From an uncultured Bacilli bacterium (GTDB lineage Bacteria; Bacillota_I; Bacilli_A; RF39; UBA660): a DNA stretch of 23,726 bases. The DNA is taken from positions 1 through 23,726 of the forward strand of contig CANQER010000001.1 in assembly GCA_947595415.1 (NCBI GenBank), given 5' to 3'. This document shows positions 1-11,393 of this stretch, one piece after another. The notes beneath the pieces were generated by a model. It was not told the DNA's origin and did no database searches. It was given only the letters and a program-made list of their open reading frames with translations. How positions within the stretch are numbered: position 1 is the stretch's first letter; every line of letters begins with the position of its first letter. A program made the translations under genes and the position numbers.

Positions 1-854
1 CCACTTGTATTATCATTTTGATTATATCCTACCTCAAATTTTCCTACCCATATTCCACTTACTCCTAATGTTGTAAACGCTGGATGCGTTAACCATTGTT
101 CATTTTCTGTTCCTTGTTCTTCTGGGTCTTCCATACTTTGAAATTCGATGTCTATTTGTTGTACTCTATTCTCTTTTGTTGTTCTTGATGTATACTCTTC
201 TACATTAAATAACTCATATTTATATCTTGGGATCCAAACAAAGTAAGCTCTTATTTTAGTTTGTGGAATTTCAGTTGTATAATCATTATATTGTGAACTA
301 TCTACTCCTTCATTTAATATTACTGCATTGGCCCATTCTTGTTTGCTATAATCATACCACTTTTTAGTTATATCTGCTTTTGTTACTGTTCCATCTTCTG
401 CTATATTTACTGGTACTAGTCCTTCTTTTAGTACTGGATCATTGCCATTTAATATTGTATCCTTATATTCTTCTTTTACTACTTCCCCACAACTTCCTTT
501 ACTTACTGTAATATTTCCTTTTTCTCCACTTGCACAGTATTCTCCATTACTTAATTCTTGTGCTTCTATTTTTCCATTGTTATTCACTATCTTTCCACTT
601 GTGAAATTATTGTTTTTCAATTTTAATTTAGATACTTCTATTCCTTCACTTGGTATCTCTGATAACCCATTTTCTACTAAATATAACTCTGCTGCATCTA
701 TCGCAAACTCTACACTTCTTTTATAACTTTCTTGTCTTGCTTTTTCTATTACATTTATTACTATAGGCACAGCTATTAAGGCTATTACTGCTAGTATTAC
801 TATTACTGCTAATAACTCTATTAATGTAAATCCTTTCTTATTATTTTTCTTCAT
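1..854 (-). CDS. Prepilin-like surface protein, copy A (3' end outside window)
   Basis: The reading frame is open from ATG at 852-854 to the window edge (284 codons), so the C-terminus is missing. A GGAGG site lies 7 bases before the start. The N-terminus is a class III-type prepilin signal: basic MKKNNKKG, then FTLIELLAV with the Glu at +5 of the mature form, then a hydrophobic helix to about residue 32. This is the signature of type IV pilins and type II secretion pseudopilins cleaved by prepilin peptidase. A short pilin-like segment with a Cys pair (NGEYCASGEKG, then SKGSC) follows, and then the start of a head domain with WIPRYKY and GIWVGKFE motifs. It is a close paralogue of the gene at 7874-10075, but lacks the roughly 175-residue Fn3-like insert found there. 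It has its own promoter and a regulated leader. Probably a displayed adhesin or minor pilin; the ligand is unknown. Confidence 0.85.
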   Translation of the reverse strand, partial: MKKNNKKGFTLIELLAVIVILAVIALIAVPIVINVIEKARQESYKRSVEFAIDAAELYLVENGLSEIPSEGIEVSKLKLKNNNFTSGKIVNNNGKIEAQELSNGEYCASGEKGNITVSKGSCGEVVKEEYKDTILNGNDPVLKEGLVPVNIAEDGTVTKADITKKWYDYSKQEWANAVILNEGVDSSQYNDYTTEIPQTKIRAYFVWIPRYKYELFNVEEYTSRTTKENRVQQIDIEFQSMEDPEEQGTENEQWLTHPAFTTLGVSGIWVGKFEVGYNQNDNTS

Positions 855-910: not shown

Positions 911-940
911 AAAAAGTCCTGTACATTTAAACACGACTCT
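911..940 (-). terminator. Attenuator-like hairpin in the leader of pilin copy A
   Basis: On the minus strand an AGAGTC arm pairs with GACTTTT, one G-G mismatch follows, then TGT pairs with ACA around an 8-base loop. Five T follow from 915 to 911. It is weaker than its counterpart before copy B but clearly homologous to it in place and sequence. It lies between the promoter and the pilin start, so it would end transcripts before the gene unless prevented from folding. The stop codon of the upstream small ORF overlaps its first bases. Confidence 0.55.
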
Positions 941-1016
941 ATGAAATATCCTCTACTACATCGTTAACTAAAGCTTCTAAATGCCCCCCCCATTTGCTAT
1001 TTGCTAACACACTCAT
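939..1016 (-). CDS. Leader ORF with G8 tract before pilin copy A (25 codons)
   Basis: ATG at 1014-1016 follows AGGAGG with only 3 bases between. A GTG two codons later (1008-1010) has a better 7-base spacing and the same frame. The peptide begins MSVLANSKWGG and ends VVEDIS before TAG at 939-941. Codons W-G-G are the G8 tract (984-991). The matching leader before copy B encodes the same VLANSKWGG. Adding or losing one G ends the frame early, at 964 (G9) or 977 (G7). Only G8 reaches the hairpin at 940. I infer a cis-acting regulatory ORF rather than a peptide with its own function. No expression evidence is available. Confidence 0.6.
   Translation of the reverse strand: MSVLANSKWGGHLEALVNDVVEDIS
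984..991 (-). repeat. G8 homopolymer, candidate phase-variation tract (copy A)
   Basis: Eight consecutive G on the transcribed-sense strand inside the leader ORF, preceded by a double GCAAAT. Runs of this kind are rare in so AT-rich a sequence and are classic sites of slipped-strand length change. The equivalent tract before copy B has nine G. Confidence 0.75.
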
Positions 1017-1050: not shown

Positions 1051-1079
1051 AATATACCATTAAATAACTATTTAATCAA
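1051..1079 (-). promoter_or_regulatory. Sigma-A promoter of pilin copy A
   Basis: TTGATT at 1074-1079, a 17-base spacer, and TATATT at 1051-1056 with TGG before it (extended -10). The same arrangement and much of the same sequence lie before copy B. Transcription would start near 1044, giving a leader of about 190 bases before the pilin ATG. Confidence 0.75.
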
Positions 1080-7873: not shown

Positions 7874-10075
7874 TTAATTAGATGGTGATAGAACTAAGCG
7901 AGAAGAGGTGCTACTGCCATAGTTACCATTAGTGGTAAAGAAGCTGAACACTCCAGCATTAGATCTGCCATTGCTGTAGCCGCCACGTTTGAACCAGGGG
8001 TACCTATAATAGACAAAGTCAGCGTAATCGCCATACCAACTACTTGTATAGTATGTATTATAATTAGCATTAGTCTTTTCAAATGGTCCCATCTCTCCTG
8101 TCGCATCTCCTAAGATTCTTGTAGTATAATTATCATATGTGCTATTTTTATCATAAACATCAAAATAATTTTTTACATTTTCTATGTCTGAATATTGTTC
8201 TATTGGATCTTTGTCAAATTCACTATAAACCATAGTTCCATCTTGGACATACCCTGCCACATATTCGCTAGCTCCTCCTGACATATCATAGATTCCTGTT
8301 ATATTTCCTGTTGTACTTGCCTTTTGACCTTGTTCTGTTTTATACGTATTTTTACAATCACTTGTTTCTGATGCTGACACAGTATCCCCTGCTATCCCTG
8401 TTGTATAATTACTACAATTATTTATATATACTTCTTTTTCTAAACCTTCTTCTCCTGTATATTTACTATTTCCATACTTTCCATATTTTGAATGGGATAA
8501 ATAGGCTACTGCTCCCCATTCTGTATTTTTCATCATATGACTATTTAAACTTGTATCAAAATTATATAAAGTTTTGAAAAAAGTATGTACAACTTGACTT
8601 CTCCACGAATATACATTTGGTTTTACTATTATCTTTGTTGGTAAATCTGTTGTATACGATTCTGTCTTTTCTGCTCCTGATGTCGTCCAATCATTTGTTT
8701 CTATATCTCCACTTGTAGTACTGTTTTGATTATATCCTACTTCAAACTTACCTACCCAGATTCCACTTACTTCTAGTGATGTAAAAGCTGGATGCGTTAA
8801 CCATTGTCCATTTGTTTCACCTTTTTCAATAGTATCATCTATTTCTTGAAATTCTATCTTTATTTCTTGTTCTCTTTTTTCGATTTTAGTTAAAGATTCA
8901 TATAAAGTATCATTAAATATCTGATATTTATATCTTGGTATCCATACAAAATATCCTTTTATTTTTTCTTCTGGAATTTCAGTCTTACAATCGTTATATT
9001 TTGAACTATCTACTCCTTCATTTAATATTACTGCATTAGCCCATTCTTGATTTTCATAATTATACCATTTTGTACTTATATCTGCTTTGGTTACTGTTCC
9101 ATCATCTGCTATTTTTACTGGTATTAAATCTCCTATTATTTTTGGATCGCTTCCTTTTAATAGTTCTTCTTTATATACTATATTTGTTACTTCATATGTT
9201 GATGCTTCTACTGTATTATTACTATTTCCTGTATCTCTTACTCTTGCTACTAACTTTCCATTACTTGTAAATTCTACTATCGCTGTCGTTTCTTTTACTT
9301 CTGTCCAACTGTCACCTATTTCACTTGTATACTGTTGATATTCATATATCCAATTTTCTTCTTTTTCACTTGGATATGTTATTGTTACTGTTATTTTATT
9401 TTCTTCTTCTATCTGTGTATATGTAGGAGCACTTATATCTATTGTTTTTACTGTTATCTCCTTTTCTGCTATTGTTCCTTCATTATCTTCTACTTTTACT
9501 TTTATTGTATAACTTGTATTTTTTGTTAATCCTGTAAATATATGTGTGTTTGTATTTTCTATATTTCCATAATCTTCTTCATCTTTTGCATAATAATATC
9601 CTTTTATATTATCCTTATTATTTATATCTACTACTACTGTTATACTACTACTTGTTACTGAATTTGTTGTAACATTATATATTTCTAGTGACTCTACTGT
9701 TCCATCACAGCTTCCTTTACTTACTTTTATACTTCCTTTTTCTCCACTTGCACAGTATTCTCCATTACTTACTTTTTCTGCTATTACTTCTTCTTCATTA
9801 TTTTCTTTTATTACTCCACTTTTAAAATTATTATTCTTTAATTTTAAATCTGTTACATTAATACCAGCTTCTGGTATCTCTGATAATCCATTTTCTACTA
9901 AATATAATTCTGCTGCATCTATCGCAAACTCGACACTTCTTTTATAACTTTCCTCTTTTGACTTTTCCATTATATTCACTACTATTGGTACTGCTATTAA
10001 GGCTATTATTGCTAAAATTACGATAACTGCTAGTAACTCTATTAATGTAAACCCTTTCTTATTATTCATCTTCAT
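7874..10075 (-). CDS. Prepilin-like protein with Fn3-like modules and FGE/C-type-lectin-like head, copy B
   Basis: A 733-residue surface protein. Prepilin signal: basic MKMNNKKG then FTLIELLAV, with E13 as Glu+5 and a hydrophobic helix at 9-34. A pilin-like segment runs to about 123, then two beta-rich modules (about 128-212 Fn3-like, 213-300 Fn3/Ig-like) that copy A lacks, then a large head (305-733). The head has WIPRYKY, GIWVGKFE, and IYDMSGGASEYV (595-606), which matches the DMSGN-WEW-type motif of FGE/SUMF1 folds. It ends in KRGGYSNGRSNAGVF...SSRLVL, the usual place of the last strands of that C-type-lectin-like fold. The last 55 codons differ sharply in base composition. Start: GGGAGG 9 bases before ATG; a second in-frame ATG is 6 bases on. 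Likely a displayed ligand-binding pilin subunit; the target is unknown. Confidence 0.85.
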   Translation of the reverse strand: MKMNNKKGFTLIELLAVIVILAIIALIAVPIVVNIMEKSKEESYKRSVEFAIDAAELYLVENGLSEIPEAGINVTDLKLKNNNFKSGVIKENNEEEVIAEKVSNGEYCASGEKGSIKVSKGSCDGTVESLEIYNVTTNSVTSSSITVVVDINNKDNIKGYYYAKDEEDYGNIENTNTHIFTGLTKNTSYTIKVKVEDNEGTIAEKEITVKTIDISAPTYTQIEEENKITVTITYPSEKEENWIYEYQQYTSEIGDSWTEVKETTAIVEFTSNGKLVARVRDTGNSNNTVEASTYEVTNIVYKEELLKGSDPKIIGDLIPVKIADDGTVTKADISTKWYNYENQEWANAVILNEGVDSSKYNDCKTEIPEEKIKGYFVWIPRYKYQIFNDTLYESLTKIEKREQEIKIEFQEIDDTIEKGETNGQWLTHPAFTSLEVSGIWVGKFEVGYNQNSTTSGDIETNDWTTSGAEKTESYTTDLPTKIIVKPNVYSWRSQVVHTFFKTLYNFDTSLNSHMMKNTEWGAVAYLSHSKYGKYGNSKYTGEEGLEKEVYINNCSNYTTGIAGDTVSASETSDCKNTYKTEQGQKASTTGNITGIYDMSGGASEYVAGYVQDGTMVYSEFDKDPIEQYSDIENVKNYFDVYDKNSTYDNYTTRILGDATGEMGPFEKTNANYNTYYTSSWYGDYADFVYYRYPWFKRGGYSNGRSNAGVFSFFTTNGNYGSSTSSRLVLSPSN
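7877..8040 (-). other. GC-shifted 3' segment of pilin copy B, possible DGR variable region
   Basis: By hand count 7881-7990 has 51 G+C in 110 bases (46%), while 8101-8210 in the same gene has 26 in 110 (24%). The segment encodes residues 679-733, the end of the lectin-like head. Between residues 700 and 725 most polar or aromatic positions use codons ending in C or T (TAC, AGC, TTC, ACC, AAT, AAC, TAT, GGC, AGT). This is what adenine mutagenesis of AAC/AAT template codons would leave. No reverse transcriptase or template repeat lies in the window, so the assignment is inference. Confidence 0.4.
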
Positions 10076-10121
10076 TTTCTAATACCTCCCATACTTATAT
10101 TTACCTACATATTCCCACAAC

Positions 10122-10149
10122 AAAAAGCCATGCTTAAAACATGACTTTT
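10122..10149 (-). terminator. Attenuator-like hairpin in the leader of pilin copy B
   Basis: AAAAGTCATG (10149-10140) pairs with CATGGCTTTT (10132-10123) in ten base pairs (one G-T) around a 7-base loop, with a further T at 10122. This is a strong intrinsic-terminator shape lying about 47 bases before the pilin start and well inside its transcript. Confidence 0.7.
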
Positions 10150-10169
10150 AGGTATCATTATTATATTTA

Positions 10170-10217
10170 CTACTTCCTAAATACCCCCCCCCATTTGCTA
10201 TTTGCTAACACATCCAT
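10170..10217 (-). CDS. Leader ORF with G9 tract before pilin copy B (15 codons)
   Basis: ATG at 10215-10217, or GTG two codons later, opens MDVLANSKWGG followed by VFRK and TAG at 10170-10172. It shares VLANSKWGG and the surrounding bases with the leader before copy A. With nine G the frame stops 20 bases before the hairpin. With eight G it would run on to TAA at 10148-10150, overlapping the hairpin base exactly as in copy A. With ten G it would stop almost at once. The ribosome site is weak for the ATG (AGG close to it) and better spaced for the GTG. Confidence 0.55.
   Translation of the reverse strand: MDVLANSKWGGVFRK
10184..10192 (-). repeat. G9 homopolymer, candidate phase-variation tract (copy B)
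   Basis: Nine consecutive G in the leader ORF, one more than in the copy A leader, with the same double GCAAAT before it. The difference of one base between paralogous leaders is what slipped-strand variation would produce. Confidence 0.75.
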
Positions 10218-10240
10218 TACCTACTTTCTTATCCATTATT

Positions 10241-10269
10241 AATATACCATTAAATTAATATTTATTCAA
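10241..10269 (-). promoter_or_regulatory. Sigma-A promoter of pilin copy B
   Basis: TTGAAT at 10264-10269, 17-base spacer, TATATT at 10241-10246 preceded by TGG. It is nearly the same as the copy A promoter. Transcription would start near 10234, about 160 bases before the pilin ATG. Confidence 0.75.
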
Positions 10270-10279
10270 GCAAACAAAC

Positions 10280-10307
10280 AAAAAAGTGTAAACTACTATA
10301 CACTTTT
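10280..10307 (-). terminator. Terminator of cca
   Basis: On the minus strand AAAAGTGTA pairs with TACACTTTT (nine pairs, 8-base loop), followed by a run of six T. The cca stop codon lies within it. It isolates the pilin copy B promoter just downstream. Confidence 0.85.
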
Positions 10308-11393
10308 ATACTTATCCTTAACATAAGAAATAAGTTCATCTCTACCATTAAAAAGTTCATTATATAAAATCTTACTCTCAATATCCTTAAAAATATCCCT
10401 CAAATAAGATCCTGGTTTTTTACCCAAAACATCACATATATCATCAGCACTTATCGCAATATCAGAAAGCTCATTTATCTGTAACTTATAATACCTATCA
10501 TATATATCTTTCCTATCAATATGCTTAATCTCCCCTGCAATACAACTAATATATAAACCATAACTATATAAATTATAATTATCTAATATATCCTTATTTA
10601 AAAGCTCATTTATCTTAGTAATTTGTTCCTTCTCATTCCTCGTAAAATCATACTTATCAACCACATCTAACTGAGCCCAAATCCCAATCAAATCAGTCGT
10701 AATAACCAAATCATCAAAATTAGACAACTGTAAAGGTTTTACTAACCCTAATTCCTTAATAAGCCTTAATCCATACCTAACATTAGGACTACTAAAAATC
10801 TTTTCTAACTCCTCTTTTTTACGATAATAAGAAAGCTTACTTAACAAATAACCATACTTCTTAATAGCTACCTTTAAATTATCATCTAAATCAAAATCCA
10901 AAACAGTCGCAAAACGAATAGCCCTTAATATCCTTAAACTATCCTCCTTTAACTTACGCTTAGAATTACCAACCACCCTTATTAGTTTTTCATCCAAATC
11001 CTTTTTCGCATTAAGTAAATCAATAATAGTTCCATTTTTATCCATACACATCGTATTAATAATAAAATCTCTTCTTTTCAAATCATCAACCAAACTATCA
11101 ATATACTTAATTTTAACAGGTAATCTATTATTCTTATACTTAAGATCCTTCCTAAAAGTCGTAAGTTCAAAACGAATGTTATTTATAAAAATAGTAACAG
11201 ATCCATATTGAACCTTAGAAACATTAGCATCCTTAAAAATATCCTTAATATCTTTAGCAGTAGCATTAGTACATATATCAATATCAATACACTCACGATT
11301 CAAATACAAATCCCTTGGATAACCACCAACCACATAAGCCTTAAAACCATTATTATCAAGCCTATTTAAAACATTGATTGCAGTCTTATACAT
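10296..11393 (-). CDS. cca: CCA-adding tRNA nucleotidyltransferase (class II)
   Basis: Adds or repairs the 3' CCA end of tRNA. The 365-residue protein has the class II nucleotidyltransferase head: VVGGYPRDLYL (GG..RD, about 21-31), IDIDICT with the metal-binding D-x-D, then RRDFIINTM and the RILRAIRFATVLDFD motif of the poly(A) polymerase/CCA family, with a helical C-terminus. The length is shorter than the roughly 400 residues of Bacillus Cca but complete. The start follows GGAGG by 5 bases. It lies just 21 bases after the HU terminator, so it relies either on read-through or on a promoter inside the HU gene; I saw no clear one between them. Confidence 0.9.
   Translation of the reverse strand: MYKTAINVLNRLDNNGFKAYVVGGYPRDLYLNRECIDIDICTNATAKDIKDIFKDANVSKVQYGSVTIFINNIRFELTTFRKDLKYKNNRLPVKIKYIDSLVDDLKRRDFIINTMCMDKNGTIIDLLNAKKDLDEKLIRVVGNSKRKLKEDSLRILRAIRFATVLDFDLDDNLKVAIKKYGYLLSKLSYYRKKEELEKIFSSPNVRYGLRLIKELGLVKPLQLSNFDDLVITTDLIGIWAQLDVVDKYDFTRNEKEQITKINELLNKDILDNYNLYSYGLYISCIAGEIKHIDRKDIYDRYYKLQINELSDIAISADDICDVLGKKPGSYLRDIFKDIESKILYNELFNGRDELISYVKDKYKSV

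Follow-up and report, generated by a model that had tools for sequence, protein, structure and literature searches.

How could a run of nine G residues, placed in a short leader upstream of a large prepilin gene, govern whether that gene is expressed? The question was raised by one element in the window, that is, the whole 23,726-nucleotide stretch of DNA analysed, which is contig C1 of an assembly (G000; 935,318 bases, 119 contigs, 68.4% complete) of an uncultured Bacilli bacterium. The element, here called copy B, spanned 10269–10122 on the minus strand and had the following features.

10264–10269, minus strand: −35 box TTGAAT (direct reading; conserved between copies)
10241–10246, minus strand: −10 box TATATT, preceded by TG, 17 nt from the −35 box
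10170–10217, minus strand: leader ORF as assembled (G9), MDVLANSKWGGVFRK, ending at stop TAG (10172–10170); predicted OFF phase
10193–10208, minus strand: conserved block TTAGCAAATAGCAAAT, found in copies across the genome
10184–10192, minus strand: G9 tract (direct reading)
10148–10150, minus strand: stop TAA reached by the leader frame at G8; predicted ON phase
10122–10149, minus strand: candidate attenuator hairpin AAAAGTCATG..CATGGCTTTTT, with a T run at 10126–10122
7874–10075, minus strand: pilin of 733 aa with an N_methyl prepilin motif, a weak fn3-like region and a variable C-terminal domain

On direct minus-strand reading, the coordinates given in the initial annotation for the promoter, leader start, G9 tract, stop and hairpin were all correct. 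Between the −10 box and the leader ATG lay the purine-rich sequence AAGAAAGTAGG, and the leader, read from 10217, began ATG GAT GTG TTA GCA AAT AGC AAA TGG GGG GGG G (MDVLANSKWGG). As had been annotated, at G9 the stop was separated by 20 bases from the hairpin at 10149, and at G8 the frame ran on to the TAA at 10150–10148, which in the register table described below, where counting starts from the next base, is a 1-nt overlap with the stem. In all three phases the tract was inside a separate short ORF and not in the coding sequence of the pilin, whose N-terminus carried a KGFTLIEL methylation motif (PF07963, E 9.6e-09). Two promoter-like sites were found in 9900–10400 and 2.9 were expected by shuffling; since this count was no higher than in shuffled DNA, the copy B promoter was assigned by conservation between copies and not from its consensus alone.

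A second element (copy A), ~9 kb away, had the same layout.

1074–1079, minus strand: −35 box TTGATT
1051–1056, minus strand: −10 box TATATT
939–1016, minus strand: leader ORF (G8), MSVLANSKWGGHLEALVNDVVEDIS, ending at stop TAG (941–939); predicted ON phase
984–991, minus strand: G8 tract
911–938, minus strand: candidate attenuator hairpin AGTCGTGT..ACAGGACT, with a T run at 915–911
3–854, minus strand: pilin, cut by the window end

The copy A stop at 941–939 was flush with the hairpin starting at 938 (gap 0), and its pilin carried the N-terminal PF07963 motif (E 4.3e-09). The hairpin of copy B was indeed the stronger one, as had been claimed (−11.3 vs −9.3 kcal/mol; z −5.4 and −3.3 against mononucleotide shuffles).

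We consider it quite probable that each copy is a self-contained phase switch, in which slippage of the tract sets leader length and ribosome-controlled termination reads it out. The promoter would drive a short leader ORF running at once into a G8–G10 tract, whose length would be altered by slipped-strand replication. In one phase of three (ON), a ribosome would reach a stop at the hairpin base and hinder folding of the hairpin, and polymerase would continue into the large prepilin gene. In the two other phases (OFF), ribosomes would stop 21–38 nt earlier, the hairpin would form and transcription would end. Slippage, termination, the ribosome effect and the resulting expression are all predictions from the DNA.

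The 22-base sequence TTAGCAAATAGCAAATGGGGGG, comprising the block and six Gs, was present in 29 copies (≤3 mismatches) in the whole assembly, and the reversed-pattern control gave 0, ruling out an assembly or chance artefact. All 19 tracts of G9 or longer lay at the block, as did 25 of the 27 tracts of G8 or longer; the two elsewhere encoded glycine runs in frame, in genes interpreted as UvrC-like and PBP-like, so the G tract was not a general feature of this genome. Absence of mismatch repair as the driver was ruled out by a MutS match above cut-off in the same assembly. Tracts of at least G8 were found in 25 of the 29 copies, and the remaining four were either cut by a contig end (two) or interrupted (two). 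Every copy had an in-frame start codon within 60 nt before the block (28 ATG, 1 GTG). The leader ORF carried (M/V)-(L/V)-A-N-S-K-W near its start, followed at once by the tract, typically G8–G10. A −35/−10 pair with 17-nt spacing was detected by a loose regular expression upstream of 26 of 29 copies, that of locus L036 being 79 nt away and doubtful. Near-identical leaders of one class (class A, below) varied in tract length, three having G8 and seven G9.

These leaders were mainly associated with large prepilins. Among 35 prepilin-like matches in the genome, 15 were large and had upstream DNA, and all 15 were preceded by the leader (13 by the block, and two by the attenuator half only, because the contig starts inside the leader); six further large prepilins, which begin at a contig end, are outside this count. 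No tract was seen in 13 of 13 smaller prepilins inspected (14 in total, L119 being left out), in up to 230 nt of upstream sequence (only 122 nt for one of them). The downstream pilins scanned carried N_methyl PF07963. Other genes were also headed by the block: an acyltransferase (L036; PF01757, 4.3e-18), an exception in that the leader ORF was the gene itself, with the tract in the gene's own frame and in frame at G9; a protein that matched fibronectin type III (L020; PF00041, 1.8e-06); and an AlgX-like protein whose match was below Pfam's cut-off (L037). At the remaining copies the contig ended ahead of the gene.

The large pilins (7874–10075 of the window, L136, L137, L138, L139 and L128) had their N-terminus and core in common, and some contained inserted fn3/Ig-like modules. 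In two of six full-length pilins their variable C-terminal domain had sub-threshold Pfam matches (0.0023 and 0.014), and we presume that this domain resembles FGE-sulfatase/C-type-lectin folds. We found no support for diversification of these C-termini by a diversity-generating retroelement of the same genome: when six pilin 3′ ends were compared with contig C61, the matches were all short (best 20 nt, E 0.004). On that contig, a small gene resembling MutS_I, an Avd-like gene (74.6 bits) and a reverse transcriptase-like gene with internal stops (L194:4127–5881) look like a decayed retroelement. On contig C69, the poly-G acyltransferase was followed by a C5 cytosine methyltransferase (PF00145, 4.2e-57; L131:1462–5781) and then, near the contig end, by another poly-G leader (G10).

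Comparison of the leaders of this gene family in the genome, the check proposed with the initial annotation, revealed a common register between stop and hairpin. It was read in the three tract phases of each of the 16 leaders with a visible hairpin (five of class A, seven of class B, two of class C, L037 and L020). In 15 of them, exactly one phase placed its stop at the base of the hairpin or within it, with the remaining two ending 21–38 nt upstream. The stop of class A was 0 nt from the hairpin at G8 (other phases 25 and 38 nt upstream), that of class B overlapped it by 1 nt at G8 (21 and 28 nt upstream), and that of class C (L028 and L035) by 1 nt at the G9 phase (27 and 31 nt upstream). 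The tract-to-stop distances of classes A and B differed by 9 nt, a multiple of three. In class C, a 2-nt length change moved the ON phase from G8 to G9 and left the stop at the hairpin base. In L037, with a reduced and interrupted tract, the assembled phase ended 12 nt inside the hairpin and the other two phases 29 and 37 nt before it. L020 was not clean, stopping 7 nt before the hairpin at G9 and 29 nt before it at G10 and running straight through at G8. Both interrupted tracts of this genome, L035 and L037, were in the long (ON) phase.

A shuffle control scored cases in which one phase stopped no more than 2 nt from the hairpin and both others at least 18 nt upstream of it; the chance of this was ~0.07 for each of the three classes. 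The leaders of any one class are almost copies of one another, and classes A and B share the hairpin sequence, leaving few independent lineages; the register is therefore suggestive and not overwhelming, and we rejected it as overwhelming proof. Class C was likewise rejected as strong independent proof of frame compensation, since three phases cover all frames and it is only moderately improbable that one of them stays open as far as a homologous stop. A codon-position test had too few changes in this genome (variable columns: two in class A, four in class B), and five of the six leaders of the related genome G053, whose frame labels are possibly shifted, gave no third-position excess (6, 4, 5). 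The initial interpretation was supported in part: the annotated view that one tract length aligns stop and hairpin held for classes A and B and failed for class C, which needs G9. The element as such is beyond chance by its copy number (29, control 0).

Hairpins in this genome ranged from −9 to −12.5 kcal/mol (z −2.9 to −5.6). RNAalifold on 14 aligned leaders predicted a hairpin of nine pairs, eight of which were formed in 14 of 14 sequences and one of which was broken in a single sequence; no pair in this alignment was kept by changes on both sides. A simple terminator scan of 9900–10400 did not flag the copy B hairpin, presumably because part of the T run is taken up by the stem and no longer counts as a tail. 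The leader might instead act after transcription, its translation in the long phase protecting the mRNA or opening structure near the ribosome-binding site of the pilin, with no terminator involved. In G053, six leaders preceded a hairpin (CTAGTT..AACTAG) that was followed by no U run, so that intrinsic termination is not supported and may not be used there at least; the long phase in that genome ended 12–13 nt before the hairpin in five leaders and ran through it in one, and the other phases ended 45–60 nt before it. Set against this, five T followed the hairpin in the 14 aligned leaders, and the hairpin ended well upstream of the ribosome-binding site of the pilin, which makes post-transcriptional action very unlikely here.

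In a slightly relaxed form, the block was found in six of 386 genomes of the family, belonging to six genera, with 0 reversed-control matches in the table. Genome G217 was rejected as a tract-rich relative (no AAATG8 match), a match in G068 (L038) inside a long open frame was taken as chance, and so was the one match outside the family in a contig scan that possibly left out the own genome, a planctomycete match in GC-rich DNA. In three relatives the start and tract were fused to a prepilin: G053 (L148 and L221), G224 (L214 and L220) and G073 (L216, cut by the locus end). As assembled, L216 and L221 were in frame, and L148, L214 and L220 were one tract phase off. The fused forms of these sister genera thus have the start motif of the leaders, ATG-L(A/T)NSK-poly-G, which supports the leader ATG as a real start. 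In the long phase, the G053 leaders read GGKL(D/A/Y)K; the fused form L148 reads GGGKLSKGFTLIEL, so that the long phase corresponds to the pilin frame. Two interrupted copies in G224 (L218 and L222) had identical upstream DNA and were out of frame with the pilin. On these sequences, the simplest history would make the leader a prepilin start that has become detached. The prepilin of L148 (L197, contig C50 of G053), to which the poly-G start is fused one tract phase off, has a C-terminus that by eye we take to be like a phage tail collar domain.

Such a history leaves room for a leader that is only a relic of a tract switch within coding sequence, with the pilin made from its own start at whatever tract length. 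The fused forms would be the ancestral state, and the acyltransferase gene L036, headed by the same start and in frame at G9, fits too. A relic should nevertheless lose register, tract and hairpin, and here the register was kept in 15 of 16 leaders, nearly all hairpin pairs were formed in 14 of 14, and the tract was G8 or longer in all copies that were neither cut nor interrupted; we regard this explanation as unlikely.

The block was also kept where the LxNSK frame had no start codon (L079 and L081 in G075, and L209 in G319), which weakens a purely peptide-based view. In G075, the G tract could itself supply the 5′ arm of a strong hairpin (−21.9 kcal/mol) with T residues after it. Conservation where translation is not obvious would be expected if block and tract served mainly for recombination between loci, by promoter/leader exchange or pilin gene conversion, with tract length a by-product. 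Two 5′ types were each combined with several attenuator classes (AAGAAAGTAGG with six A, five B and three C; TAGTAGATAAAGG with five A and one B; class not visible in five copies of this tally), and 13 of 29 copies were no farther than 75 nt from a contig end, where 0.55 would be expected, although shared repeats alone would break assemblies too. As recombination leaves unexplained the reading-frame register, the confinement of long G tracts to the block and the fused forms, it too seems improbable as the main function.

A wider and more tentative reading, to which we give somewhat less than even weight, is that ATG-L(A/T)NSK-polyG is an evolving switch cassette. A hypermutable prepilin start, with its tract in frame with the pilin, would have been detached by stop codons and have acquired a hairpin, turning into a leader that acts on transcription; it would then have reached unrelated genes, both inside one genus and across genera, and one genome would now run ~30 independent attenuator switches as a random surface display. 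Its targets would be pilins, an acyltransferase and a fibronectin-type surface protein, together with, in G075, a related tract element before an apparent diversity-generating retroelement.

That element, on contig C3 of G075 (L196:832–2748; tract L078), consisted of a G9 tract and terminator-like stretch standing immediately ahead of three genes: one small and MutS_I-like (1.8e-07), one Avd-like (34.3 bits against a Pfam cut-off of 40) and one for a reverse transcriptase (PF00078, 1.7e-16). After these came a template-like repeat in which AAC/AAT are frequent. The whole has the look of a diversity-generating retroelement controlled by a phase-variable element; a variable-repeat partner was not found in the G075 genome. 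G tracts occurred in other settings as well. In other family members, −35-like and −10-like boxes were separated by tracts of G9–G13 (TTGACA..G(n)..TATAAT and variants), at L087 and L088 (G222), L155, L161 and L171–L176 (G149; the −35 side of L176 is beyond the stretch) and L182–L185 (G216), suggesting promoter-spacing switches. At L188 and L189 (G034), a leader MKIANR was followed by G9, and one phase ran through a hairpin to end overlapping the ATG of the next gene (CTATGA), which suggests translational coupling.

From the assembled tract lengths, which are short-read consensus values and possibly wrong, eight of the 29 copies were predicted to be ON or probably ON (L009, L011, L020, L025, L029, L035, L036 and L037) and 17 OFF, and four at contig ends were unreadable. 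L011 and L014 could be assigned even with classes A and B indistinguishable, since both classes switch at G8; L025 and L029 show the leader stop and not the hairpin. Copy A is predicted to be ON and copy B OFF in this one consensus assembly. Independent switching of pilins, as first proposed, fits these mixed states. With ~30 independent switches, each cell would display a small random subset of pilins.

The element is best read as working like pil1/pil3 of Streptococcus gallolyticus. According to Danne et al. (2014, PMC3894217), gain or loss of GCAGA repeats there alters the length of a leader peptide such that, when it is lengthened, ribosomes disturb a premature terminator. In pil1 variants with high expression the leader ends either 4 bp before the hairpin or within it, and in those with low expression 28–49 bp before it, distances that resemble the ones found here. 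Both systems have a promoter, a leader ORF with a simple repeat, a frame-dependent stop at or inside the hairpin or well upstream, and pilus genes downstream; stochastic switching was shown there and is predicted here. A weak point is that class B at G9 ends 21 nt before the hairpin, nearer than the at least 28 nt of low-expressing pil1 isolates. In the same source, the repeat is a pentamer (22 and 13 copies) and not a single G tract, the loci are two sortase-pilus loci, whereas here 29 copies lie mainly before type IV prepilins, and the hairpins are stronger (−18.7 and −28.2 kcal/mol) than the −9 to −12.5 kcal/mol found here. As the two systems differ in repeat unit, in pilus type and in genomic scale, and the present element is known from its sequence, it was not filed as a pil1-type member.

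Two other systems bear comparison. Replication slippage of a poly-G tract turns a pilus on and off in another gut bacterium, Bifidobacterium breve (Penno et al. 2022, PMC9187656), and slippage is likewise envisaged here; the tract of that sortase-pilus switch is inside the pilus coding sequence, to which only the fused forms L036, L148, L214, L220 and L216 are similar, and a term search of that text returned no mention of a leader. As in trp-type amino-acid operon attenuation, outlined in PMC3894217, the position of the ribosome in the leader would decide terminator formation; in trp it is set by amino-acid supply, while here it would follow heritable tract length. No poly-G leader attenuator was found in the literature searched, which was mostly non-subscription and judged chiefly by abstracts. 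On this comparison, the device appears to be already known in kind from S. gallolyticus pil1, and what seems new is the homopolymer, the type IV prepilins and the many copies.

The only tested case of leader-length phase variation by attenuation found in the literature searched comprises two loci in one species. The same logic would here operate on a homopolymer, at genome scale and in an uncultured lineage, and the fused forms in sister genera suggest a route from a translational to a transcriptional switch. The leaders described here probably turn single pilus-like surface proteins on and off in a random manner. If so, counting Gs in deep sequencing data could reveal the surface state of such bacteria with no need for culture, and consensus assemblies would give a wrong picture of the pilins produced.
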